Origin: an uncultured Myxococcales bacterium
Lineage (GTDB): Bacteria; Myxococcota_A; UBA9042
Direction of reading: 5' to 3'
Length of the DNA: 63,174 bases
Assembly (NCBI GenBank): GCA_937910235.1
Contig: CALENB010000328.1
Coordinates: 1 to 63,174 of the forward strand
The position numbers were made by a program, and so were the translations under genes. Positions 16,653-45,564 of the stretch are shown here, piece by piece (the first letter of the stretch is position 1; each line of letters opens with the position of its first letter). Below the pieces are notes generated by a model. The model was given only the letters and a program-made list of their open reading frames with translations. It did no database searches and had not been told where the DNA came from.

Positions 16653-17777
16653 ATGGATTTGCAGGAACTCGACACCTGGCTCAACACGGCCACGCTGCTG
16701 CAAAACAGCGCCCGCACCTGGTTTGTGTCCGCGTTGGTGCTGATGCTCGGCGTCCTGCTGAGCCGCATGGCGCGCGCAGGCTTAGGCTACTACGGCGGAC
16801 GGCTGGCAGCCGCGACGGAGACAGAGCTCGACGACGCCATGGTCGAGACCTCGATCGGGCCGGTCTCTTCGATGGTCATCCTCGTCGCCATGCACGTCGT
16901 GGTGCACCTGTTTAAGATGGCCGCCGGCACGCTTGAGCTGCTGGTCGATGGGCTCACGATCGCCGCGGCCATCCTCGTCACGCAGATGTTGCTCGGCTGG
17001 GTCGACGCCTTCTTCGTCCACTTCGTGCGCCCGCTGCAGCTGAGGAAACACGCCAACGTCGATCCGCAGGTCACCGAGTTCGGCCGCAAATTCAGCCGAA
17101 TCGCGGTGGTCCTGGGCGCTGTGCTGACGGTGATGCAGACGGTTGGGCTCGACGTGATGAGCTTGGTCACCGGGCTCGGCATCGGCGGCCTCGCCGTCGC
17201 CCTGGCCGCACAGGAGACGCTGGGCAACGTGCTCGGCAGCCTCCAGGTGATGACCGATCAGCCCTTCTCCACCGGGGACTTCATCAAAGTCGACGGCATG
17301 TTCGGTCGCGTGCAGGAGGTCGGGTTGCGGTCGACCAAGCTCATGACGCCGGAAGGCGTGCGCATCATCATCCCGAATCGACTCATCGCCCAGGCTGCGA
17401 TTCACAACTGCAGCGTTCATCGCGGCATCACGGAGACCTTCGATCTCGGCCTGACGTACGACACCTCGGCCGCTAGGCTCGAAGAGGCCGCCCGGATTAT
17501 TCGCGACGTCGTCGGCGCCCAGCCCAACACGGGGGAGGACGTGACGGTGCACATGCTGAGTTTTGGCAACTTCTCGCTCAACTTGCGTGTGGTGTATTTT
17601 CACACGGACTTCGAGGCCGTGGCCCAGACCCGCCACCAGGTCAACCTCGCGATCAAGCGCGCGTTCGACGACGCCCACCTCAACTTCGCGTTCCCAACCC
17701 AGACGCTGCATCTCAGTGGCGAAGGCCCCGGTGATCCCGTGCGGCTGCAGCGCTCACAGGCTGATTTGTCGGCCTAG
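16653..17777 (+). CDS. Mechanosensitive channel, MscS family
   Basis: This 374-residue protein has three to four N-terminal membrane helices followed by the MscS pore and beta domain. The diagnostic segment GIGGLAVALAAQETLGNVLGS is the pore-lining TM3 rich in Gly/Ala. It is followed by PFSTGDFIKVDGMFGRVQEVGLRSTKL and IIIPNRLI, the MscS beta-domain signature. The size is larger than E. coli MscS (286) and closer to YnaI-type channels. It should gate ion or solute release under membrane tension. The last 20 residues are polar and variable. The gene ends 29 bases from the convergent giant cysteine-rich gene, with no clear terminator between. Confidence 0.93.
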   Translation: MDLQELDTWLNTATLLQNSARTWFVSALVLMLGVLLSRMARAGLGYYGGRLAAATETELDDAMVETSIGPVSSMVILVAMHVVVHLFKMAAGTLELLVDGLTIAAAILVTQMLLGWVDAFFVHFVRPLQLRKHANVDPQVTEFGRKFSRIAVVLGAVLTVMQTVGLDVMSLVTGLGIGGLAVALAAQETLGNVLGSLQVMTDQPFSTGDFIKVDGMFGRVQEVGLRSTKLMTPEGVRIIIPNRLIAQAAIHNCSVHRGITETFDLGLTYDTSAARLEEAARIIRDVVGAQPNTGEDVTVHMLSFGNFSLNLRVVYFHTDFEAVAQTRHQVNLAIKRAFDDAHLNFAFPTQTLHLSGEGPGDPVRLQRSQADLSA

Positions 17778-17806: not shown

Positions 17807-20800
17807 CTACGGGCTGCATTTCGGGATCGGCACGTGTTTGCAGCCGCCGGCCACACAGTAGTCGCCGGTGCAGTTGTTGTTGTCATCGCAGTTCTTGGGT
17901 TGCCCCGTCACGCACGCGCCGCTCTGGCACACCTCCGTGGCGAAGCAGCCGGCGCCGCAGCTCGCGCCGGTCTGCTTGGAGGCAAACGCGCAGACGCCCG
18001 TCTTCTTGTCGCACGCGTCGGTGGTGCACGGGTTGCCGTCGTCGCACTGCGTCACCGGCAAGCGAAAACGGTGGATCTGGTTCTGGGTAAAGCTCGCCAC
18101 CCAGCCACCGCCGGTGCCGTCTATCGCGACGCCAAAAGGCTCGTCGAGCGTGGCTTTGGTGCCGTCGCCGTAGACGGTGTAGACCAAGCCGTCCAACCCG
18201 ACCCGACGCACGCGACGATTGCCGATCTCCGCGACGTACACCGCGCCATCCACACCGACGGCGATCCCGTACGGCGTGTCGAGGAGCGCGACTTGAATCG
18301 GACCGTCCTGAAACCCCTGCGTCGTCCCCGCGACGGTCAGCACGGTGCCCGCCGACGTGATGAAGCGCACGCGGTGGTTGCCAGAGTCCGCGACGTACAG
18401 CCCGCCGTCGATGCCCCGGGCGATGCCGTAGGGCGCCGAGAACTGCGCCTGCGCCGCCGGACCGTCCTTGAGGCCCGCCTTGCCCGTGCCGGCCAGCGTC
18501 ACGACCTGGCCATCCACCGTCACCAGTCGCACGGCGTGGTTGCCGAGATCGGTGACGTACACCCCGGATTCATCGACCGCGAGGCTCGTCGGCAGGTTGA
18601 AGCGCGCGACGGTCTTGTAGCCGTCCACAAACCCCGAGACCCCCTTGCCGGCGAACGTGCTGACTTGGCCCTTGTCGTCGATCACACGCACCACGTTGTT
18701 GTTCAAGTCCGCGACGTAGACCTCTCCGTCCAGGCCGGGTTGCGCGTCGGCCGGGGCGTAGAACTGGGCTGCGGCTTTGGCGCCATTGACCAAGCCGGCC
18801 GTGCCGCTGCCCGCGAACGTGCTGACGGTGCCGTCCTGCGCGATCGCGCGGATGCGATGGGATCCTAGCTCCGCGACGTAGATCACGCCGCCCGGTCCAC
18901 GTCGAGCACTCCAAGGCTGCGCAAACATCGCCTTGTCGGCCGCGCCGTCGAGATACCCGGCCTTGCCCGTGCCGACCCGCACCAGCGTTTTGCCCAACTG
19001 CGCGGGCTTGCAGGCGCCCTTGTCGCAGGTCTCCCCCGTGGTGCAGGCGTCGCCGTCATCGCAGGGCACGTCGCTCGTCGCCGTGTGCAAGCACTGCCCG
19101 GTCTTGGGCGCGCAGGCGTCGATGGTGCAGACGTCCTTGTCGTCACACGCCTTCTTGCTGCCAGAGGTGCATTTCGCGAACGCGCAGACGTCGCCCTCGG
19201 TGCAGGGGTCGCCGTCGTCGCAGGCCTTGCTGTGGCCCGTGAAGACACACTGCCCGCTGCTCCCCTCACAGGTGTCGGTCGTGCACGCGTTGCCGTCGTC
19301 ACACTTGGCCTTGTTGCCGCCGACGCAGCTGCCATCGCTGCACACGCCGTACAGCCAGCACTTGTCGCCGTCCTTGCAGTTGCCAACCCGCGGCACGCTT
19401 TTGCAGCCGCCGGTCGACACATCGCAGCTGTTGACGGTGCAGCCGTTGCTGTCGTCGCAGTCTGCGTCTTTCGCGCAAAAACCCCCGCAACCCGGGATCG
19501 GCGTCGCCGCGCAGCCGCCGGTCTTGCTGTCACACGCGTCCGTGGTGCACGCCTTGCCGTCGTCACAGCTCTTGGTCTTACCCGTCACGCACACGCCCTT
19601 GGCGCAGCTGTCACCAACCGTGCACGCGTCGCCGTCCTCGCAGGTGCCGGCGGCGTGGCTGAACACACAGCCGGTCTTTGGGTCGCAGCTGTCGGTGGTG
19701 CAGACGTTGTTGTCGTCACAGGCGAGCGCCTTGCCCTTGGCGCAGATGCCGCCCGCGCACGTGTCCGCGACGGTGCAGGCCGAGCCGTCGGCGTCGCAGG
19801 GGTCACCGGCGAAGATCGCGGCGTCGTGGGCGCAGGCCCCCGTCTTTCCGTCGCAGCTGTCCTTTGTGCAAGCGTTGCCGTCATCACAGGCTTTTTTGGG
19901 CCCGATTGTGCAGCCCTTGTCCTTACAGAGGTCCACCGGCGTGCACTTGTCGCCGTCGGCATCACACGGCGCGCTGTTCGCCGTCGCCTGGCAGCCGGCC
20001 TTGGGATGGCAGCTGTCGTCGGTGCAGGGGTTGCCGTCATCGCAGCTCTTCGCGCCGCTCGCCACGCACGCGCCACCGCTGCACGCCTCGCCCGAGGTGC
20101 ACACGCTGCCATCATCACATTGCGCCGCGTTTGCGGGGTTTTTGCAGATGCCGCTGTCGCAGATGTCGTTGGTGCAGGGGTTGTTGTCATCGCAGTTCGC
20201 CGCGTTGGTGCACTTCTTCGAGCACCCCACGATCTCCACGAACGTGCACGACCCGGTCTTGGCGTCGCAGCCATCGAGGGTGCACTTGTCGCCGTCGATA
20301 CAGGTCTTGAGGTCGCCCGCCTTGCACCCACCATCCGTGCAGACGTCGCCAACCGTGCAGCCGTTGCCGTCGCTGCACCCCTGCGCGTTCTTGGCGTGGG
20401 TGCAGCCGGTGAGGGGATTGCAGCCATCGCTCGTACACGGGTTCTCGTCGTCGCACTTCAGGTCGCTGCCCGGCAGGCAAACGCCAGCTTTACAGACGTC
20501 TTTGAGCGTGCAGATCGAGGCGTCCGCGTCGCACGGCGCGCCGTCTTTCGCGGCGCTGTCGTAGATGCAGTTGCCCGTCTTGCTGTCACAGCTGTCGGCG
20601 GTGCAAGCCTTGCCGTCGCCGCAGAGTTTGGGGGAGCCGGGCACACAACCGCCATTCTGGCAGTAGTCGACGACCGTGCACGTGTCCCCGTCCGCGTCGC
20701 AGACCTTGTTGTTCGGGCTGTGCAGGCAGCCCTGCTTCGGGTTGCAGGCGTCGTCGGTGCAGGGGTTCTTGTCGTCGCAGTCGGTGGTCGCGCCGGCGAC

Positions 20801-21841
20801 GCAGGCGCCGGCCTTACAAGCGTCTGCGACCGTGCACGCGCTGCCATCGGCGTCACAGGCGGTGCCGTCTTTCTCGGTCGTCTTCACGCAGCTGCCGGTC
20901 TTCTTATCGCACGCCTCCGTGCCGCAGGCGCCGGGCGCCGCGCAGACCACCGCGCTGCCGGGTTTCAGGACGCACTGCTTGGTTGTCGTGTCGCACGCGA
21001 GCTTGCCAGCGCACAGATCACCAGTCGCAAACTTGGCGCAATCGGCGTCAGCGGTGCAGCCGCAGGTGCCGTTGGAGACCCCGGCGCACGTGCCGCCCGC
21101 GCACGTGTCACCGCCGGTGCACGGGTCACTGTCGTCGCAGCCCTTGGCGTCTGTCGCGCTGTGTTTACAGCCTTTGAGCGGGTCGCAGCTGTCCGCCGTG
21201 CAGGCCTCGCCGTCGTCGCAGTTCAGGGCCGGCCCGCCGACACAGTCGCCCTTAGCGCACGCGTCCGCCGTCGTGCAGGCGTCGCCGTCGTCACACCCTC
21301 CAGCCGCAGCGCCGTGGCTACATCCCGCGTTGGCGCCAGTGGGCTCACAGCCATCGGTGGTGCACGGATTGCCGTCGTCGCAGCTCAGCGCGGTGCCCGT
21401 GCAGACCGTGCCCACGCACAGATCCTTGGTCGTGCAGCCATTGCCATCACTGCACGGCGCGCTCGTCGCCACGTGGCTGCAGGCGCCGGTCGCCGGATCA
21501 CAGGTGTCGAGCGTGCAGACGTTGCCGTCGTCACATGCCCCACAAAGCGCGGCCGCATCAGCGCTGCTGACCGAATCTGTCGCCGTGTCCCCGCCGCCGT
21601 CGCCCGCATCCGGCCCAGCGTCCACCGCCGTATCAGGCGTCTCTCCTGCATCACCTGTGTTGGTGTCCTGCTGCACGATCGCGTCGATCAGCACGTCGGC
21701 GCCGATCCCGACGTCCCCCGCCTTCGCCTCGTAGACCCCAGCAGCGTACGGGCCCAGATCGAGGAGATCCGTGTCCGAACAACCGGCTGCGATGAGCAAG
21801 GACCAGGCGATCACGATACGATGAGTGACGCGGTGGGACAT
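17807..21841 (-). CDS. Giant cysteine-rich lipoprotein with internal NHL propeller
   Basis: This protein has 1344 residues from the ATG at 21841, which has GGAGG five bases upstream. The signal ends SLLIAAGC (lipidated Cys about 20). Residues about 75-940 contain some 28 CDDGN/CTxDxC modules. From about 945 to 1260 there are about six NHL blades (GVYVTDLGNHAVRLV, GLYVADSGNHRVRFI, AVYVAEIGNRRVRRV), each followed by a TLAGTGKAGLKDG-type linker. A final pair of cysteine modules closes the protein. NHL propellers are usually binding modules; here one is displayed at the end of a disulfide-rich rod, so an exposed recognition or anchoring function is a reasonable inference. Its promoter region is shared divergently with glgC. 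Confidence 0.87.
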   Translation of the reverse strand: MSHRVTHRIVIAWSLLIAAGCSDTDLLDLGPYAAGVYEAKAGDVGIGADVLIDAIVQQDTNTGDAGETPDTAVDAGPDAGDGGGDTATDSVSSADAAALCGACDDGNVCTLDTCDPATGACSHVATSAPCSDGNGCTTKDLCVGTVCTGTALSCDDGNPCTTDGCEPTGANAGCSHGAAAGGCDDGDACTTADACAKGDCVGGPALNCDDGEACTADSCDPLKGCKHSATDAKGCDDSDPCTGGDTCAGGTCAGVSNGTCGCTADADCAKFATGDLCAGKLACDTTTKQCVLKPGSAVVCAAPGACGTEACDKKTGSCVKTTEKDGTACDADGSACTVADACKAGACVAGATTDCDDKNPCTDDACNPKQGCLHSPNNKVCDADGDTCTVVDYCQNGGCVPGSPKLCGDGKACTADSCDSKTGNCIYDSAAKDGAPCDADASICTLKDVCKAGVCLPGSDLKCDDENPCTSDGCNPLTGCTHAKNAQGCSDGNGCTVGDVCTDGGCKAGDLKTCIDGDKCTLDGCDAKTGSCTFVEIVGCSKKCTNAANCDDNNPCTNDICDSGICKNPANAAQCDDGSVCTSGEACSGGACVASGAKSCDDGNPCTDDSCHPKAGCQATANSAPCDADGDKCTPVDLCKDKGCTIGPKKACDDGNACTKDSCDGKTGACAHDAAIFAGDPCDADGSACTVADTCAGGICAKGKALACDDNNVCTTDSCDPKTGCVFSHAAGTCEDGDACTVGDSCAKGVCVTGKTKSCDDGKACTTDACDSKTGGCAATPIPGCGGFCAKDADCDDSNGCTVNSCDVSTGGCKSVPRVGNCKDGDKCWLYGVCSDGSCVGGNKAKCDDGNACTTDTCEGSSGQCVFTGHSKACDDGDPCTEGDVCAFAKCTSGSKKACDDKDVCTIDACAPKTGQCLHTATSDVPCDDGDACTTGETCDKGACKPAQLGKTLVRVGTGKAGYLDGAADKAMFAQPWSARRGPGGVIYVAELGSHRIRAIAQDGTVSTFAGSGTAGLVNGAKAAAQFYAPADAQPGLDGEVYVADLNNNVVRVIDDKGQVSTFAGKGVSGFVDGYKTVARFNLPTSLAVDESGVYVTDLGNHAVRLVTVDGQVVTLAGTGKAGLKDGPAAQAQFSAPYGIARGIDGGLYVADSGNHRVRFITSAGTVLTVAGTTQGFQDGPIQVALLDTPYGIAVGVDGAVYVAEIGNRRVRRVGLDGLVYTVYGDGTKATLDEPFGVAIDGTGGGWVASFTQNQIHRFRLPVTQCDDGNPCTTDACDKKTGVCAFASKQTGASCGAGCFATEVCQSGACVTGQPKNCDDNNNCTGDYCVAGGCKHVPIPKCSP

Positions 21842-21988
21842 GGAGACCTCCAGCAGAATGGCCAAATCGGCAGCGGGTACGCTGCAACATAACTGTCGCC
21901 AGCGCGCGGGGAAAGTGCGATCGCGGTTGACGTAGTTCGCAGCGCGCATAGCGTAGAGACGCCCAACCGCGGACGCAGGAGTCTTACT

Positions 21989-23362
21989 GTGCAAACTCTC
22001 GTGATGATCATGGCCGGCGGCAAGGGTTCTCGCCTCGCCCCACTGACTTGCCACCGCGCTAAACCGGCCGTCCCCTTCGGAGGGCGCTATCGGATCATCG
22101 ACTTTGTGCTGAGCAACTTCGTCAACTCGGGCTATCGCCACGTCTACGTGCTGACCCAGTTCATGGCGTCGAGCCTCATTCAACACCTGAACCGCAACTG
22201 GTCACTGTCCAGCTTCGGCATGTTCATCGAGGCCGTTCCTGCGCAGATGCGGCGCGGCAACCACTGGTACGAGGGCACCGCCGACAGCGTCTGGCAGAAC
22301 ATGAACCTCATCCGCGACGCGCACTGCCAGCATGTCGCGGTGTTTGGTGGCGACCACATCTATCGCTTCGCCGTCGACCAGATGGAAGCGGCTCACATCG
22401 AGACGGGCGCCGAGCTCACCATCGCGGCCTGCCCGATGCCGGTGGCGGAGGCGTCGCGGTTTGGCGTCATCGAGGTCGACAAAAGCGGCAGGATCACGGG
22501 CTTTCAGGAGAAACCTGCCGTGCCAACCGAGATGCCGGGGCGGCCGGGGTGGAGCCTCGTCAGCATGGGCAACTACATCTTCCGCGCCGACGTGTTGGAG
22601 GAGGTGCTCATCGCAGACGCGGACCGACCCGACTCCGATCACGACTTTGGCAACGACATCATCCCCGGCATGCTCAAGGACGGGCGCCCGATCTACGTCT
22701 ATGACTTCCACAACAACCGCATCCCCGGCGAGGCGACGGCGCACACACCATACTGGCGCGACGTGGGGACGCTCGACAGCTACTTCGACGCCAACATGGA
22801 CCTGCGGGCCGCGCTGCCGGAGTTCAACCTCTACAACCGCGAGTGGCCCATCCGCATGGCGCAGCGCAACTATCCGCCCGCCAAGTTTGTGCGCGACGGC
22901 GGCATCGGCCGGAGCGGCGAGCTGGTCGACTCGTTGGTCTGCGAAGGCACCATCGTCAGCTCCGCCAGCTTGGCCAACGTAATCGCCGGCTACGACTGTC
23001 TGTTCGAGGTCAACAGTCAGGTCGACGAGTCCATCGTCCTGAGCGGCTGCACCATCGGCGCCGGCGCGCGGTTGCGGCGGGTCTTGCTCGACAAGAACTG
23101 CTCGATCGAGGCGGGCACCGTCATCGGCTACGACCAGGCGGCGGACCGCGCGCGTTTTCCGTGGGTGACCCCCGGCGGCGTGGTCGTGCTCCCCAAAGGC
23201 ACCCATGTGCCCGCGAGGGGGCCGATTGAGTCAGCGTGGGACATGGTGACCCTGCTCGAGCGCGATCCCCACGCTGGCCCGGTGATGCGGAAAAAACGCG
23301 GCTCCTACGTCGCAGCCACACGCAGCCGGCACTCCCACGACTCGACGATGTCACGCGGATGA
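21989..23362 (+). CDS. glgC: Glucose-1-phosphate adenylyltransferase
   Basis: This 457-residue protein makes ADP-glucose, the donor for glycogen synthesis. It begins at a GTG with AGGAG seven bases upstream. The nucleotidyltransferase motif GGKGSRLAPLT, the AKPAVPFGGRYRIIDFVLSN segment, GDHIYR, and the ADP-glucose pyrophosphorylase block FQEKP are all present. The C-terminal third is the left-handed beta-helix that normally carries allosteric contacts. The last 35 or so residues are a basic, low-homology tail. The stop codon overlaps the glgA start as ATGA, so synthesis of the two enzymes is coupled. Confidence 0.96.
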   Translation: MQTLVMIMAGGKGSRLAPLTCHRAKPAVPFGGRYRIIDFVLSNFVNSGYRHVYVLTQFMASSLIQHLNRNWSLSSFGMFIEAVPAQMRRGNHWYEGTADSVWQNMNLIRDAHCQHVAVFGGDHIYRFAVDQMEAAHIETGAELTIAACPMPVAEASRFGVIEVDKSGRITGFQEKPAVPTEMPGRPGWSLVSMGNYIFRADVLEEVLIADADRPDSDHDFGNDIIPGMLKDGRPIYVYDFHNNRIPGEATAHTPYWRDVGTLDSYFDANMDLRAALPEFNLYNREWPIRMAQRNYPPAKFVRDGGIGRSGELVDSLVCEGTIVSSASLANVIAGYDCLFEVNSQVDESIVLSGCTIGAGARLRRVLLDKNCSIEAGTVIGYDQAADRARFPWVTPGGVVVLPKGTHVPARGPIESAWDMVTLLERDPHAGPVMRKKRGSYVAATRSRHSHDSTMSRG

Positions 23363-37081: not shown

Positions 37082-38032
37082 TCAACGACTAGTGGTGCGC
37101 AAGCCTACGCGGGTCACCGTCTCACCGCGTGGATCCGTGACCTGCTCGCCGCGCTCCTCGGCAGCGTCCAGCGTGGTGACTCTGGCGCTGGGAGCCCGTA
37201 AAACCAGGGTTGCGAGCGCATCACGGCGCGCCACCGGCGCCAGCGCCGCCGCGAAGGTCGCCGCGGAGGGCGGCGACGACCGACTGCGCAGCGCGGCGAC
37301 CACGCAGTCAGCGGCGGCCTGCGGCAAGTCTGCGATCGCGGCGGCGACGAGGCCCAAATCGAGGTCGCCGACGGCGGCGCGACGGCGCTGGTCGGCGGCT
37401 GGACCCGCGCCCAGCGGCGAGGTGCCGACGCGCGTGCGCACCCAGAGCAAAGCGAGGCCAAAAACGTCGCTCTGGGGCGAACGGCGGCGCCCACTGGCTG
37501 CCTCTGGGTCGAGGAACGCGGGCGTGCCAGCGCCGCCGACACGGTCTGGCCCACCTGGGCTGGCGGCGAGGCCAAAGTCGCTGAGGCGCGCGGTGCCAAG
37601 CCGGTCGATCAGCACGTTGCCGGGCGCCAGATCACCGTGCAGCACGTCGACAGCGTGACACGCCACCAAACCTAACGCTGCGTCGTGCAGCGCCGCCGCG
37701 GCGGGTCCCTGCGCGAGCGGTCCGGAGCGCAACAGCTGCCAGAGGCTGACACCGTCCACCAGCCCGAGCGCCAACCAGCACAGCCGTCGCGTCTCGCCGG
37801 TCTGGAGCAGCTGGACGACGTGGCGATCCCGAACCAGCGCCAGCGCGACGCGCTCCGCCTCAAAGGCCGCACGCGCGGCCGGCGAGTCGACGAGCATCGG
37901 CAGCAGGCGCTTCAGCGCGACCGCGTCGCCACCGACCACCGGCGTCGCACGCCGCACCTCGGCAAAACCACCGAGACCCAACACCTCACCGAGCAACCAG
38001 GGACCAAAAGCAATCGCGGGCGCCAGCGTCAT
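37082..38032 (-). CDS. Serine/threonine protein kinase without membrane anchor
   Basis: This 316-residue kinase has a glycine loop GLGGFAEV, the lysine in VALKRLL, HGDLAPGNVL as the catalytic loop and SDFGLA as the metal-binding DFG. The HRD arginine is glycine (HGD), so it is a non-RD kinase that probably does not need activation-loop phosphorylation. The C-terminal 60 residues have no clear domain and no membrane helix. Its ATG follows the TGA of the large regulator directly (TGAATG), so it is probably co-translated and acts with that protein. Confidence 0.88.
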   Translation of the reverse strand: MTLAPAIAFGPWLLGEVLGLGGFAEVRRATPVVGGDAVALKRLLPMLVDSPAARAAFEAERVALALVRDRHVVQLLQTGETRRLCWLALGLVDGVSLWQLLRSGPLAQGPAAAALHDAALGLVACHAVDVLHGDLAPGNVLIDRLGTARLSDFGLAASPGGPDRVGGAGTPAFLDPEAASGRRRSPQSDVFGLALLWVRTRVGTSPLGAGPAADQRRRAAVGDLDLGLVAAAIADLPQAAADCVVAALRSRSSPPSAATFAAALAPVARRDALATLVLRAPSARVTTLDAAEERGEQVTDPRGETVTRVGLRTTSR

Positions 38033-41000
38033 TCACAGCGCCTTGTAGGCGCGCAGCTTGTTGTAGAGCGTGCCCCGATCGATCCCCAAGCTCAGCGCCA
38101 CCTGCCGCTTGTTACCGTCCATGCGCTCCAGACGGTCGAGGATCACCTGCTGTTCCAGATCTGCGAGCGTGCCCTCGCTCGGCAGCTCCCCCGTCCCTCC
38201 GCGCGGTCCGCCGGGCGCGCCCTTGCCGCCCCGCTCCAGCAGCGGCGCGACGTCTGCCACGTCGAGCGTGTCGCTCTCAGCGAAGATGCAGGCGCTCTTC
38301 AGAAACATCTCCAGCTCACGAACATTGCCTGGCCACGGGTACCGCTGCATGACGCGCAACGCGCGCGGCGTGATGCGCGACACATCGCCGATCCCCGCCG
38401 CACGGTGACGCCCGAGAAAGAACTCCACCAGCACGGGGATGTCGCCCGTCCGATCCCGCAGCGGTGGGATCATCAGATCGACGACGCGGAGGCGGTACAG
38501 CAGATCTTCGCGAAAGCTGCCTTCCGTCACCATGTCATCGAGATCACGGTGGGTCGCCGCGAGCACACGCACGTCCACCTTCCGCACACGATTGCCACCG
38601 ACCCGCGTCAGCTCCCCGGTCTGCAGCACACGCAGCAGCTTGACCTGCATCGCCAAGGGCATCTCGCCGATCTCATCGAGAAAGAGCGTGCCGCCATCCG
38701 ATTGCTCAAACAGACCACGACGTTCCGCGACAGCGCCCGTGAAAGCGCCGCGCACATGGCCAAACAGCTCACTCTCCAGAAGATTCTCGGGCAACGCGCC
38801 GCAGTTGATCGCGACGAAGGGCCCCTCTTTGCGGGCGCCGGTGAAGTGAATCGCCCTGGCCACGAGCTCCTTACCCGTGCCGCTCTCGCCGATGATCAGC
38901 ACGCTAAACGGATGGTCACGGACCCGATCCATCAGGGAGAACAGGCGTGTCAGCTGCGCGCTTCGACCCTTGATGGCCTCATAATCGCTGCGCCTCGCCA
39001 GCTCATGGCGCTCCGCCGCGAGGGCTTCACGCGCGGTGCTGAGCGCGTCCGTGGTGCTCTCCAGTTGCTCCTGGAGTTGGGCGTTGAGGCCCGCGACCTC
39101 TGCGTGACTGCGCGCCAAGGCGGCCTCGCTGGTCTTGTAGCGCGCGATGAGCCGAGCGGTGTGCAGCGCGATGGCCGCCTGCGACGCCAGCGCCTCCAAG
39201 ACGGCGGCCTGCTCGTTGGAGAACGCGCCGGAGGTAAAACGGTTATCGACATAGAGCACGCCGATGGTGCGGCCGCGCAGGTTCATCGGCACACACAGGA
39301 TCGAGCGCAGGTTGGCGGAATGCACGCTGTGATGGCTCTGGTAGCGCGGGTCCGCCTGCGCGTCGATCGAGAGCACGGGTTCGCCGCGGGCAAACACCTC
39401 CAGCGCGATCGAGTTGCTCAACTTATGGGCCGGTTTCTTCAGGTTTTCGCGGTCCAGGTTCCGCGCCACCGCGATGTCGAGATCGTCGGGGCCGGGGAGG
39501 TGATCGGCCTGCGGCGCGTCGCGGGTATCGAGCAACAGGAAGCCGCGCTCGCCACCGGTCAGCGCGACGGCGGCGTCCATCAGCACCTCGAGCAGGCGAT
39601 CCATGTCGTGCTCTGCGCTCAGGCGTCGGTTGAGGGCCAGCACAGCCGAGACGGTGTTGCGGCCCCGGATTCGACTGGTCTCGGTGAGGTCGGCCGTCGC
39701 GTTGCCGGCTTGGCCGGTGAGCAAGCGCAGCAGGGTGCGGGTGGCTTGGTGCTCCGGGGCGCTGCGCAGCCGCTGCGCGCGGGCGGTGTCGAGCGATCCG
39801 ATGACACGGTCCATGCGCGCGAGCTGTAGATCCGCGACGCGGGAGGCCTCGCCTCGGCGGCCGCGCAGGGCGAGCACGAGCGCGCGATCGACGTCGACAG
39901 CGAGCGCTGTCATGCCCTTACCGGCGGGCAACCCCTGAGCGGCGGCATCGAGGTGCGTCGCGGCTTGGCGGAGCGCGGTCTGGCCGCCGCCGTCGGGATC
40001 AGCGTCGAATCTCGCCAGGGCGACGCGGCCCAACAAGTGCGCAGCGCGGGCACGCAGCTCGTCACTCTCGAGGCCCTCACCCGCGGCAACGACCTCCTCA
40101 GCGATGCGCTCGGCCTCGTCGACCCGCCCAGCGGCGAGCCACTGCCAGCCGCGCTCCAGACGAATCTCGCGCAGCTCATTGCTGGCGCCGGCCTCGCGCA
40201 GCGCGTGCTCTGCCTGGCTGATCCACGCACCGGCCTCATCAGGGCGCCCGGCGCGGCGGGCGAGCTCCGCCAGCACACAGCAGACGTTGCCGACGAGGTA
40301 GTGGTTGCCGACCTCTTGCAGATCGGCGAGGGCCGCGCGCAGGTCCTCTTCGGCATGTTCAGCGTCACCGAGCAGCGCCAGCAGGTTGCCGCGGTTGTTG
40401 CGTGACCGCGTCAGCGCGCCAGCGTTGCCGAGCCGCCGCGCGCTGGCGATCACCCGGTCGTAGCCGGCCAAAGCGCGCCCCAGATCGCCGGCCTCATGGT
40501 CGATCGTGGCGATGTTCATCGTCATGTTCAGCACACGACCGCGGTCGCCGGCCGTCTCCGCGAGGCGGCGGCTGCGGTCGTAGGCCGAGCGGGCCGCCTC
40601 CAAGTCACCGGCGCGGTGCGCCACGAGCCCCAGACCGGCGGCGGCCGCCGACTGCACGGCGATGGGTGTCTCGGCGGCGTCGAGCGACGCGAAGTGGGTG
40701 CGTGCGTCATCGAGGGCGCCGGCGTAATAGCAGGCCAATCCCTTCAAATAGCGGAACTGCGAGTGCAGCTGAGGGCGACCGACGGCGACCTGCATGCCGC
40801 GCGCCACATCCGTCGCCGCCGCGCGCGACTCGCCTTGCCACGTCCGCGCGAAGCTGCGCCAAAGGAGCGCGAGCGCCGCCAGATCGGGCCATGGCCCCTC
40901 CGTTGGCGGAGAGAGGCTGTCGAGCGCCGCGTCGGCGGCGAGCACGGCGGCCGGGTAGTCGCCCTGACGGAAGGCCAACTCAGCGAAGGCGACCTGCATC

Positions 41001-43066
41001 TCCGGAGCCTGCTGCGAGGCCGGATCGTCGGCGTCGTGGCGCTGTCGCGCGGTCGCGAAGCGCCCCAGGGCGACCTCTGCGCGCAGCGCCGCCAACCGCA
41101 CCGGCCCGCCGGTTTGGTCGGACGAGACCGACAGCCAAGCGTCGGCGAGCGTCAGCGCGCGACCCGCTTCTGCGCGCTGTCGCAGGCCCTCGCACACGGC
41201 GGTGACGGCCGCGGCGGACGGCAACGTGTCACCGCCGTAGCGCGCCGCGAGGACGCGCATCAGCACCGACGCCTCAGGGGCACGATCCAGCAACCACGCC
41301 GCGCGCTCGCTGGCGGCCTTCACCAAGGCGGCTGGCGGCAGCTGCCCCTGCCACAGCTCCGCCTGCGTGGGGCTGATGCGCAGGGCGCCGCCGGGCAGGC
41401 GCCGCACACCGGGCGTCGCCAAGGCAGCCTGGGGCAGCGCCGGCATCGGATCGCCGTCCTGCCCCGGCGCGCAGGTCCCGGCCACTGCGAGGTGCGCGAG
41501 CGCGGCGGACAGGTCGGCCGGCAGCGCCGCCGCCGTGGTCAACTCGTCGGCGAGCAGCCGGCGCGCATCCGCGGCTGTGCCGACCAACTCGACGCGATCG
41601 GGGGCTTCGGAGACGAGGTCAGAGCGGATGAGTCGCGCCGCAGCGGACCAGATTCGCGCGCGGTTGGTCCCGATCTCCTCGGCGATCGCCTCGCACAGCG
41701 CGAGGTCCCAGCTGCGACCGCCGTCTGCGGCGTGCAGCGCCGCGGCGACTTCATCAGCGCCACAAGCCGGCAGGTGCAACACCGCACCGACCTCGCCGAC
41801 GGTCGCGCCGACACAGGCGATCCGAGGGCCGCCGCCGCCCCGGGCCACGAGGCGCACGACGGCGTCGCGGACGGGTTCGATGAGGTCAGGCAGGTCGTCA
41901 ATGAGCAGCAGGCCGTCTTCGCCCAGCGCGTCAACGATGCGGGCGAGGCGGCGGTCGATGTGCGCAGCGACCTCGCCACCCGGCTCACCGAGGGCGCCGG
42001 CCTGCGGTTCGGCGTGGCCAGCGGCGGCGCCCGGCACGGCGAGGCGCCCCTGCCGAACCAGCTCCGATTCAACGCGACGCAGCGGATCTGCGCCTGGCGC
42101 ATGCGCGGGCTCCAACCACACGACGTCGCCCTCTGTCGCTAGCGCCAACGCACGCAAGGCCCCTGTGCGCCCTGAGCCCTGCTCGCCAGCGACCGTGACG
42201 GCGCGGCATTGCTCCGGCCAAGCCAGCGGCGGCTGGCCCTGCCAGCGACCCCAGCGCCAGGGATGGTCCGTCAACGCGACGAGCCGTTCGCCGCGCGACA
42301 GCTGCACGTTTGTGCGGGTGCACCACGCTCGGAGCGCAGCCTCTGCGTCAGCGGGTCGGTCGGCCCGCCGCGGTCGCAGCCAACTTGCGATGAGGGTCAA
42401 CAAGCCGGCGTGGGGCGCCCCGGCGGGGATGACGGGCGCGGCGCTCCCCTGTGGCAAGGCCGCCGGATACGCCGGCCACGGCGTGTCGAGACCCAACGAC
42501 CGCCAGATCGCGAGCCCGAACGAGAACAAGTCATCGCGCGCGTCGACGCCCTCGCCGCGCAAGCGCTCAGGGGCCGAATAGGCCGGGAGACCGGCGCCCC
42601 AGGCGGCTACGTCACCTGGACCTTGGGCGAGGCCAAGGTCGAGCAGCGACACCTGCCCGGCCGCATCCACCAGCAGATTACCGGGGTGCAGATCACCGTG
42701 CACAAAGCCGGCGGCATGCAGCGCGCGGAGCGCCTCCAAGCCCTGCGCGACGACCGTGGCCAGCCGCGCCTCGTCACAATCGACCAAGCCGTCGGTCAGC
42801 GGCACGCCAGGGCGACGCGCCATGACCAGCGCCGCGGCGCCGTCGACACCAGGCGCGAGCCACGCCACCGGGGTCGGCAGCGCGGCACACGGCACGTCGA
42901 GGAGCGCGCGATATTCGCGTTTGAGCGCGGCGATCTGGTCACCATCGTGGGCGCGAGTGTGCTTGAGCACCACGGTCTCGCCGCCGCCAACGCGACGCGC
43001 CAGCCACACCTGTCCGCCACCGCCCTCGCCGATCAAACGCTCCGCTCGCCAACTTCCAAAGCGCAT
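38033..43066 (-). CDS. Kinase-ATPase-TPR-GAF-sigma54 activator fusion
   Basis: This single 1677-residue chain has at least six segments. (1) A Hanks-type kinase, about 1-270: [24 protein letters not shown], and DLG in place of DFG. (2) A P-loop ATPase, about 285-480: GEQGSGRT near 294 and [10 protein letters not shown] near 389. (3) TPR-like helical repeats, about 560-1120. (4) A GAF domain, about 1150-1310. (5) A sigma-54 AAA+ domain, about 1360-1600: GESGTGKE near 1394, the GAFTGA loop that contacts sigma-54 near 1442, and [11 protein letters not shown]. (6) A Fis-type HTH ending [21 protein letters not shown]. The AAA+ and HTH motifs are intact, so it should activate sigma-54 promoters. 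The ATG has AGGAG five bases upstream. Confidence 0.93.
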
Positions 43067-43198
43067 GTCGTCTCCTACCAGAGTGCTGAATCATAGGACA
43101 GTAGTGGAAAGATTGAACACTTCCTGCCGGCGCGTCAATGGAGACGGCCGGCGCTCAGGTCGGCAGATGACGGCGAATTCGACGTAGGACGCGGCATC

Positions 43199-43214
43199 CG
43201 GCATGTTGGTTGCA
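43199..43214 (+). promoter_or_regulatory. Sigma-54 (-24/-12) promoter
   Basis: The sequence CGGCATGTTGGTTGCA matches the consensus TGGCACGnnnnTTGCA closely. The invariant GG is at 43200-43201 and GC at 43212-43213, twelve bases apart as required. It faces the short lipoprotein gene that starts 74 bases downstream. The 132 bases between it and the divergent activator gene leave room for enhancer sites. Confidence 0.72.
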
Positions 43215-43287
43215 TCCAGGGACACCAGACGGCGGCGCGACCGCGACGACGCCAGACGCAGACGTTCGGCCAATCCGGAGTGGAACC

Positions 43288-43692
43288 ATGAACCAGACAT
43301 TCGACACGCGCAGTGAGCACGACGAGCACGACCTGCCATCTCCCGTCGGCGCCCAGCGTGGCCGCTGGCTGCGAATCTACGTCCTGTGCGCGGTCCTCGG
43401 CGGCTGCGTGGTGAACCCGGTTCCGACCCCGGCCACGGGCGGCAACGCGGCCTTCGACGTGAGCGCTGCGATGGACGGTGGGGTGACGGACGCCGCCGTC
43501 GGAGGTTCGGATACGAGCGCGGCTGCAGACACGGGGTCGGCGGCGAGCGACGCGAGCGCCAGTGACACCAGCGCCAGTGACACCAGCGCCAGTGACACCA
43601 GCGCCGCCAGCGACACCGGTCTACCAGGGGACGCGACCGTGAGCGGAGACGCCGGCCTCAGCGATGACGCCACGCAAACTGACGCCGACTGA
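43288..43692 (+). CDS. Short lipoprotein with DTSAS linker repeats
   Basis: This 134-residue protein starts at an ATG with GGAG seven bases upstream and lies behind the -24/-12 promoter. A hydrophobic stretch ends in the lipobox VLGGC, about 45 residues in. The rest is only Ala/Ser/Thr/Asp/Gly with three DTSAS-type pentapeptides, and no folded domain follows. In the larger lipoproteins of this window such a tract links the lipid anchor to a cysteine-rich domain; here the protein ends after the linker. It may be a truncated member of that class or a true small surface lipoprotein. Confidence 0.75.
   Translation: MNQTFDTRSEHDEHDLPSPVGAQRGRWLRIYVLCAVLGGCVVNPVPTPATGGNAAFDVSAAMDGGVTDAAVGGSDTSAAADTGSAASDASASDTSASDTSASDTSAASDTGLPGDATVSGDAGLSDDATQTDAD
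43561..43605 (+). repeat. 15-base tandem repeat (three copies)
   Basis: Three identical copies of AGTGACACCAGCGCC encode Ser-Asp-Thr-Ser-Ala in the linker of the short lipoprotein and keep its frame. Confidence 0.93.
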
Positions 43693-43725: not shown

Positions 43726-45564
43726 CTAAGGCGCTCGCATCCCGACGGACGCGGGAGGGTTCCCCGGCAGGCCCTGCAACCGCGCCGCGTCCGCGGCCTG
43801 CCAGCGGCGGCGGTCCGGTTCGTCGAAGTGATACACATCGGGATACAGCCGCACTTGGCCCGTGGCGGTCACATCGGCGGTCCAGTAGACCAGCTCGATA
43901 CGAATCACCGAGCGCAGCGGTTTCCACTTGTTGGAGACGCGCGCCATCAGCTTGCCCCAGCTACGTGTGGTGAACCCCTCTGGTCGGTCGATTTTGAGGA
44001 GGTACCGAGCGAGCTCCTCGGCGTGCTGCACACGCACGCAGCCGTGACTCGTCGTGCGCCGCGGCCGGCTGAACTGCCATTGGCTCGGCGTGTCGTGCAG
44101 GTAGACCAGGTGGTCGTTGGCGAACAGGAACTTGACCCGCCCGAGCAGGTTTCCGGCGCCCGCGCGCATGACCAGCGTCGTCCCGCGAGCCGTGGTGCGC
44201 TCCTCGAAGCCGTGTTTGGCGAGGTAGTCGGGATCGCGTTTGATCTTCGGTCGATACTCGCGACGAATGGAGCTCGGCACGACCCACTCTGGGTTGAGGA
44301 CGAGGAACTTCAGCTGTGAGCCGATCTGCGGCGTCCACGAACCCGGCACCCAGCGCCGGCCGCGCCGCTTAATGCCCCGGCCCACCTGCACGCGGTGACT
44401 CCGGACCAGCTTGGCGTCGCGCCACACGTCGAGCCGAAACGCCGGGATGGTGACGAGGAAGAGGTGGTCATCACCGCCGACGCTCGCGTCGCGCATCCGC
44501 TGCAGCGCCAGGCGAATGGTGTCGACACGACGCCGCATCGGCACCGCGAGCGCCGCGACCGTCGCGCGATCGAGCAGGCCATGGTCGCGCAGTCCGCGAT
44601 GGCGCTGCCACACGCGCAGCTGCTCAGCGAGGTCAGCCTGCAGCCCTGGCGGCGCGGGCCGAACGGGATCGCCAGGGCGCGGCGCGGGTGGCGGCTGGGC
44701 GCAGTACCCTTCAAAACACAGCCGCGTCCGGAGCGCTTGGCGGTGGGTATCCTTCACGTTGCGCTGCCACTTGCGGCGGAGCTTGGCGTCGTGCCAAGCG
44801 AGCTTCGCGGCGACCGGCGTGGCGGCAGGCAGCGGCGGCTGGGGCTGGGCGCTGAGGCTGCGGTAGTGGGCGAGACCCGCGACGAGGCCACGGTAGGCAG
44901 CCCATTTGCCGGGGCCGAGCTCGGCCAGCCATTGCTGGGTGTGCGCGGCGAGGTCCGTCGGTGCCGCGACGGCGGCCGCCACCTGCCGCACGGCCCGGAA
45001 GCGGCGCGCGAGCGTGTCCCTGGCGTCGGCGAGGCGCTGCTTCTGGGTGGGACGGCGCAGGTTGGGGGACAGCGGCTGCGAACGGGCGCCCATCGCCGCG
45101 CCGTCGACCAAGGCATGCTGCCCCCAGACGACCGCGTCCAACCAGCAGCCGAGGCGCTGCGCCTGGTCCATCGGGCCACCGCAGAGCCGCCCCGCCAGCT
45201 GGGCCGCGGCCGCGTCGTTGGCGAGCAGCCCGTGCTGCACACACACAGCGAGCAGCGCCGCGAGGCCGCCTGGTGGCACATGCAGCGGCTGAGGCGCGGG
45301 TTGGCTGAGCACGAGCTCGGGATCACCCTCCACCGCGCCGGGCGCGGAGATGCGCCCGGTGGCGAGCAAGGCGCGCACCAGCGTGGCCCGCCGCCCGACC
45401 TCGCCGCTGAGGCGGGTTGGTGCGACGGCGAAGGACGCTGAGGTCGCCGCGCCGCGAGGGCCCACGACGGACGGCTGCCCGTGCGCGAGCGTCCCGTAAA
45501 AACAAAGGATCAGCGCGATCGGGAGCGCGCGGGGGATCAAGGTCTGGAGGTGCGCATTACCCAA
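43726..45564 (-). CDS. L,D-transpeptidase with peptidoglycan-binding domain
   Basis: This 612-residue exported protein resembles YcbB/LdtD-type L,D-transpeptidases, which make 3-3 cross-links in peptidoglycan or attach proteins to it. A hydrophobic signal (LPIALILCFYGTLAHG) is followed by a long helical region, a peptidoglycan-binding helix set (LRVWQRHRGLRDHGLLDRATVAAL) and the YkuD domain. The catalytic motif is SHGCVRV with Cys near residue 509. The start appears to be a TTG at 45564 with GGAGG nine bases upstream, overlapping the preceding stop by eight bases; another in-frame TTG eight codons on is possible. Confidence 0.88.
   Translation of the reverse strand: MGNAHLQTLIPRALPIALILCFYGTLAHGQPSVVGPRGAATSASFAVAPTRLSGEVGRRATLVRALLATGRISAPGAVEGDPELVLSQPAPQPLHVPPGGLAALLAVCVQHGLLANDAAAAQLAGRLCGGPMDQAQRLGCWLDAVVWGQHALVDGAAMGARSQPLSPNLRRPTQKQRLADARDTLARRFRAVRQVAAAVAAPTDLAAHTQQWLAELGPGKWAAYRGLVAGLAHYRSLSAQPQPPLPAATPVAAKLAWHDAKLRRKWQRNVKDTHRQALRTRLCFEGYCAQPPPAPRPGDPVRPAPPGLQADLAEQLRVWQRHRGLRDHGLLDRATVAALAVPMRRRVDTIRLALQRMRDASVGGDDHLFLVTIPAFRLDVWRDAKLVRSHRVQVGRGIKRRGRRWVPGSWTPQIGSQLKFLVLNPEWVVPSSIRREYRPKIKRDPDYLAKHGFEERTTARGTTLVMRAGAGNLLGRVKFLFANDHLVYLHDTPSQWQFSRPRRTTSHGCVRVQHAEELARYLLKIDRPEGFTTRSWGKLMARVSNKWKPLRSVIRIELVYWTADVTATGQVRLYPDVYHFDEPDRRRWQAADAARLQGLPGNPPASVGMRAP

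Follow-up and report, generated by a model that had tools for sequence, protein, structure and literature searches.

A predicted family-specific sigma-54 regulon of exported proteins in uncultured Myxococcota, including a short lipoprotein and probably driven by a divergent kinase-activator

Our analysis leads us to propose that the element CGGCATGTTGGTTGCA, found in a 63-kb window (the whole stretch of DNA analysed, the relevant features of which are collected in Table 1), serves as the sigma-54 promoter of a short lipoprotein gene, and that this gene is part of a sigma-54 regulon for exported proteins that is specific to the family and whose probable driver is the divergently encoded kinase-activator, acting at a tandem dyad. 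Taken as a whole, we regard this reading as likely, if by no means secure. The conservation of the promoter, the dyads with their fixed spacing, the wider dyad-promoter association, its restriction to one family and the intact motifs of the activator can all be read, as far as sequence goes, from the genomes compared. We infer that the dyads are bound by this activator and not another one, and that the signal it answers to is cytoplasmic.

Table 1. Features of the predicted sigma-54 unit and its neighbours (coordinates are those of the window)
Feature	Position	Strand	Remarks
Predicted -24/-12 sigma-54 promoter element CGGCATGTTGGTTGCA	43199..43214	+	GG 43200-43201, GC 43212-43213; predicted start ~43225
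Short lipoprotein gene (134 aa; no folded domain identified)	43288..43692	+	ORF; LGG/C lipobox
Mature N-terminus codons C-V-V-N-P-V-P-T-P	43405..43431	+	begins at lipobox cysteine
L,D-transpeptidase gene, convergent	43726-45564	-	domain scan
Activator gene, 1677 aa, soluble	38033..43066	-	Pkinase, TPR, GAF, Sigma54_activat, HTH_8 domains
Second Ser/Thr kinase gene (Pkinase)	37082..38032	-	directly 3' of activator gene; also follows activator in same-genus G001
Upstream dyad TGCTGAATCATAGGACA of candidate activator site	43084..43100	.	8/10 consensus positions
Downstream dyad AGTGGAAAGATTGAACA of candidate activator site	43103..43119	.	8/10 consensus positions; 11.0 bits

Situated in the 221-bp intergenic region between the activator gene and the lipoprotein gene, CGGCATGTTGGTTGCA displays the GG-N10-GC spacing that is standard for -24/-12 promoters and deviates from TGGCACGNNNNTTGCW at two positions, which bears out the first-pass annotation in calling it near-consensus; measured against TGGCACG-N4-TTGC, it likewise has two mismatches and the correct spacing. 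Transcription from the predicted start would give a 63-nt leader ahead of the lipoprotein gene. The genome encodes rpoN (one gene, PF04552 above cut-off). Sites were scored with a fixed sigma-54 matrix, the weights of which approximate the published consensus and were not fitted to these data. CGGCATGTTGGTTGCA is the best sigma-54-like site on both strands of the window, albeit by a narrow margin (13.1 bits vs 12.8 and 12.5), and it stands out from shuffles of its own intergenic region (p=0.0025). Rfam elements at the gathering score were not found in the window.

For a comparison across the family, loci were oriented and their upstream regions examined with 2000 dinucleotide shuffles per region, and 17 short-lipoprotein loci could be scored. 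A copy on contig C458 of genome G009, identical to the window locus, was excluded as probable contamination, and G009's own locus was used. This contig (L010, L131) carries an activator fragment and a lipoprotein locus that are 100% identical to the window at the protein level, and G009 is assigned to a different genus than the window and has a homologous locus of its own; C458 has probably been mis-binned. Conservation at orthologous loci, a check that had been set beforehand as a refutation test, came out in favour of the element: a -24/-12 site on the same strand is kept in 16 of the 17 loci (each p<=0.008 vs shuffles), with no site of p<0.1 on their opposite strand under the same matrix and shuffles. 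The sole exception is G011, in which activator and lipoprotein are present and the -24/-12 element was not found; two further homologues have a damaged -12 GC (GT in G001, GG in G010). A chance match in GC-rich intergenic DNA would agree with the behavior of the bare motif, which is not significant in the window (TGGCAYGNNNNTTGCW at <=1 mismatch: 1 match vs 1.34 expected) and occurs at chance frequency in the whole genome (86 matches vs 85 for the reversed control). Despite this background, however, the recurrence of the element in 16 homologous loci, on the same strand and with nearly constant spacing to the dyads, led us to reject a chance origin, which is hardly credible.

Within the ~80-150 bp upstream of the promoter in which an activator site was sought lies the tandem dyad (43084-43119), which is probably that site and which the first-pass account did not include. 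In homologous loci, two copies of TGTnGnAnnnTnCnACA spaced at a pitch of 19-20 bp closely precede the start codon of the activator, each unit being 17 bp long with the form TGT-N11-ACA; the pitch of the window pair is 19. With a matrix built from other genera only, the window's own genus being left out, the pair starting at 43084 and 43103 is the top tandem in the 63 kb, scoring 16.0 vs -8.6 for the next one. A tandem search of 22 genomes allowing <=3 mismatches hit the upstream region of the activator in 10 genomes and 4 other places (reversed control, 3); both copies are weaker in the window's genus (8/10 positions) and were missed by this search. The distance from the GG to the dyad start is 99-145 bp in 14 of 16 loci, with many at 110-116, the remaining two being 80 in G016 and 362 in G021. 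In G021 (L130), where dyads and -24/-12 element are 362 bp apart, repeat-like, GC-rich inverted sequence lies between them, possibly an insertion. A further strong dyad at 17588 of the window (14.3 bits) falls inside an mscS-like coding sequence and has no sigma-54 element; we treated it as a chance occurrence.

The combination of dyad and promoter is not confined to this locus. Single exact dyads are enriched over the reversed control in the family genomes, and among the 68 non-focal ones examined (about four fifths of those present in the family) 25 are accompanied by a sigma-54 site of >=13 bits at 70-160 bp, compared with 1.1% of positions drawn at random from these loci (binomial p ~3e-31); random positions served as the control, since scrambled dyads yielded no sites in these loci. 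Up to 600 bp, the histogram of dyad-promoter distances contains 27 cases at 50-150 bp and 2 elsewhere. The other 43 of the 68 have no strong promoter nearby. The genes behind all 25 dyad-promoter loci look exported (lipoproteins or secreted), a count that is somewhat favoured by our start-codon heuristic because it prefers signal-peptide-like starts. The domain results do not depend on this heuristic: domains in ten scanned targets include DUF2330, DUF3160, VWA, Kazal, Ig-like and beta-helix. Some putative targets bear MYXO-CTERM-like tails. A stricter dyad-promoter composite, which misses the window's own weaker copy, gave 15 matches in 8 genomes, all of them in the family, and no control match in 52 genomes. 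Since dyad and sigma-54 promoter also precede other exported-protein genes, the short lipoprotein would, of all members of a family-specific regulon, be the most constant one, and since this switch recurs before many exported proteins of the family, it looks like a program of coordinated cell-surface remodelling. Two side observations concern cysteine-rich proteins: a secreted one (GGYC/SYC..PC.SA..TC) recurs behind dyad and sigma-54 promoter at L275, L277, L279, L283 and L286, in three genomes with the gene of a response-regulator-type sigma-54 activator at a distance of 3-5 kb, and the window itself encodes, at 17807-22186 on the minus strand, a large repeat protein, rich in Cys, that starts like a lipoprotein (AAGC/SDTD...) and has NHL-like repeats.

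The pairing of a local regulator with a local target, as suggested in the first-pass annotation, therefore holds in so far as the promoter is conserved and a link to the activator is probable, and fails in so far as the arrangement occurs family-wide. It could still be argued that the activator controls only the divergent lipoprotein gene and itself, the other dyads being similar sites of unrelated regulators. The best tandem dyads are indeed confined to the activator locus, and the window's genome has only two other exact dyads with a strong promoter, both preceding lipoprotein genes (L269, L270). Against such a restricted role, the short lipoprotein gene of G007, which resides on a contig other than that of the activator, has kept its dyads and promoter; G010 has dyad and promoter before a CAINPVPTP lipoprotein; spacing and type of target agree at 25 loci; and the composite is limited to the family. 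We thus consider a purely local pair quite unlikely. When sigma-54 sites were picked in the window's genome regardless of dyads, some had a dyad-like sequence and a lipoprotein gene (L251, L253).

The regulon that we favour requires an activator, and the divergent gene encodes a protein with all the hallmarks of a sigma-54 enhancer-binding protein: as claimed in the first-pass annotation, its GAFTGA motif is intact and a Fis-type HTH is present, and the Walker A motif of the AAA+ domain is intact as well. The Ser/Thr kinase-like domain (aa 8-198) is followed by TPR (~807-877), GAF (1152-1302), sigma-54 AAA+ (1366-1531) and the Fis-type HTH (1633-1674), and a transmembrane-like stretch was not found in the protein. 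The kinase domain contains the motifs expected of an active Ser/Thr kinase (glycine-rich loop, VAIK Lys, and the HxD..N and DFG positions, retained as HGD..N and DLG). An upstream P-loop-like motif reads GEQGSGRT, with Arg replacing Lys. In the orthologues of genus g6 (L011-L015) the glycine-rich loop of the kinase is lost while HGD..N and DLG are retained, so kinase activity may not be universal among orthologues, and the N-terminus of the g6 proteins is possibly a pseudokinase. The second kinase gene, directly 3' of the activator gene, probably belongs to the same operon as an accessory component.

It is conceivable that promoter and dyads are real and yet are controlled by a different sigma-54 activator, the kinase-activator being no more than a conserved divergent neighbour. 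Family genomes contain dozens of other sigma-54 activators, and in G008, G017 and G004 one of the response-regulator type has its gene 3-5 kb away from a secreted-protein gene that carries a dyad. On the other hand, the strongest, tandem dyad pair is found almost exclusively upstream of the kinase-activator gene, it is the kinase-activator whose orthologues span the family (20 of 22 genomes), and the recognition helices of the sampled alternatives are unlike its own, the HTH core GNKR..A.SLGIDR being common to its orthologues and different in the other activators sampled. Control by another activator hence strikes us as improbable, though it deserves more weight than the other alternatives considered here. 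We base the link between activator and dyad on position, on the tandem site being restricted to the activator's own gene and on the HTH core. It may gain some support from an apparent co-variation in genus g6, where the recognition helix reads RTTLYA vs RGTLYN/RSTLYN in other orthologues, and where base 6 of the half-site is G in 15 of 20 half-sites; elsewhere 23 of 24 have A if genus g5, which is mixed, is left aside. As a single clade is involved, this is only suggestive.

On the target side, the lipoprotein gene is the only gene before the convergent L,D-transpeptidase gene, in keeping with the first-pass claim of a single gene downstream of the promoter. The 3' neighbour varies between loci (L,D-transpeptidase, CinA-like, others), and we therefore rejected it as part of the unit. 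The product gave no match to Pfam or NCBIfam domains. It is a predicted bacterial lipoprotein, with a long n-region (~29 aa) and a signal ending in ...VLCAVLGG/C, and would presumably be lipidated and exported, in which case surface remodelling is the presumable output. The first-pass description of a lipid anchor plus a linker was right about the lipobox and the tail, rich in Asp/Thr/Ser/Ala, and overlooked a family-specific mature N-terminus: CxVNPVPTP directly follows the lipobox in 20 of 22 family genomes and in none of 30 genomes from elsewhere in the class, with no match for the reversed control, the two family genomes that lack it being 58-67% complete. This start occurs once in the window's genome and heads short lipoproteins here; elsewhere it heads lipoproteins with unrelated C-terminal parts or domains. 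We hypothesize that it has a role in sorting or anchoring. Loci of this kind vary somewhat in content: a tandem duplicate of the short CVVNPVPTP lipoprotein gene lies directly 3' of the first copy at L119 (G001) and L203 (G009), and in G013 and G018 activator and dyads are present with no short lipoprotein found nearby.

Could the untranslated leader, or divergent control of the activator, be what is under selection, with the lipoprotein only incidental? The tail of the lipoprotein evolves fast across loci, and six relatives (G008, G015, G017, G020, G005 and G004; L124, L126, L127, L128, L120 and L121) have a long hairpin in the 5' leader, whose loop region GGGTGCGCCTCGG is invariant (UGCGC loop) and whose stem sequences change yet still pair. 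This hairpin is possibly a regulatory element in those six; we rejected it as part of the window system, as it does not occur in the window's leader and is not multi-copy in the family. The hairpin is missing from the window and at least 9 other loci, however, the protein sequence CxVNPVPTP is preserved although its codons differ at synonymous positions between homologues, and the lipoprotein gene has been tandemly duplicated in G001 and G009, all of which makes an incidental lipoprotein very improbable.

According to the regulon model, a presumably cytoplasmic signal would be received by the N-terminal GAF, TPR or kinase parts of the activator, which would oligomerise at the tandem dyad ~100 bp upstream of the promoter and, once dyad-bound, would loop to the sigma-54 polymerase to bring about open complex formation and, as the output, expression of the short lipoprotein and of other exported proteins. 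The activator is also likely to regulate itself, given the position of the dyad immediately before the start codon of the activator gene. A bolder version, in which this is an undescribed regulon of one Myxococcota family whose soluble kinase-TPR-GAF-sigma-54 activator switches on surface lipoproteins, in which CxVNPVPTP is a new sorting tag shared across unrelated domains and the focal protein consists of tag and linker alone, is one that we entertain only tentatively. Were the model true, it would offer a sequence-level handle on surface control in an uncultured myxobacterial family, in the form of a predicted regulator, DNA site, promoter and target list open to joint testing. The small number of sigma-54 regulons known for sorted surface proteins, PEP-CTERM/PrsR being the best described, would thereby gain one with a kinase-fused regulator, and the CxVNPVPTP start would be a candidate lineage-specific lipoprotein sorting signal.

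The first-pass annotation knew of no described module of this type, and in our own, incomplete coverage of the literature we too found no paper on a kinase-fused sigma-54 activator controlling such a lipoprotein. The individual parts have known relatives. The GAF-AAA+-Fis core of the activator is related to the NifA and NorR models, and its kinase domain is of the kind found in the large set of myxobacterial kinases; what sets it apart is that kinase, TPR, GAF and AAA+ are united in a single polypeptide, for which no NCBIfam equivalog reached its cut-off (NifA 361.7 of 528.85; NorR 329.9 of 476). Some putative regulon members have the Cys-TM-Arg tail of the MYXO-CTERM/myxosortase system (PMC11980579), with one sub-threshold match to TIGR03901 among putative targets, whereas the focal lipoprotein lacks this tail and bears a lipobox at its N-terminus. 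That sigma-54 controls the bacterial exterior, lipoproteins included, is an established theme, and for the control of lipoproteins in Borrelia the response regulator listed is Rrp2 (Francke et al. 2011, PMC3162934); our case resembles it in tying sigma-54 to cell exterior and lipoproteins, and differs in the dyad, the activator architecture and the CxVNPVPTP lipoprotein, which are not described in the parts of that survey consulted.

Among described systems, the one that comes closest is the PEP-CTERM regulon (PrsK/PrsR) of proteobacteria, in which a 17-nt activator motif, sometimes repeated, is followed by a ~63 nt spacer, a -24/-12 site and, after ~71 nt, the gene for an exported surface protein, in single-gene units; its Fis-type sigma-54 activator PrsR was inferred by comparative genomics, and subsequent work demonstrated that one gene depends on RpoN (Haft et al. 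2006, PMC1569441; PMC9850573). Our activator scores 295.1 bits against the PrsR model TIGR02915 (cut-off 502.6) and has no receiver domain, and PEP-CTERM models gave no match to the focal lipoprotein and eight other putative targets. Where the PEP-CTERM system employs a response regulator with a histidine kinase, a first motif ending in TTTACA and targets ending in PEP-CTERM, we find a single soluble Ser/Thr-kinase-like/TPR/GAF polypeptide, a pair of TGT-N11-ACA dyads, and lipoproteins, secreted or MYXO-CTERM-like proteins. The logic of the two is nonetheless the same: a 17-nt motif, a spacer, a -24/-12 site and a gene for an exported protein.
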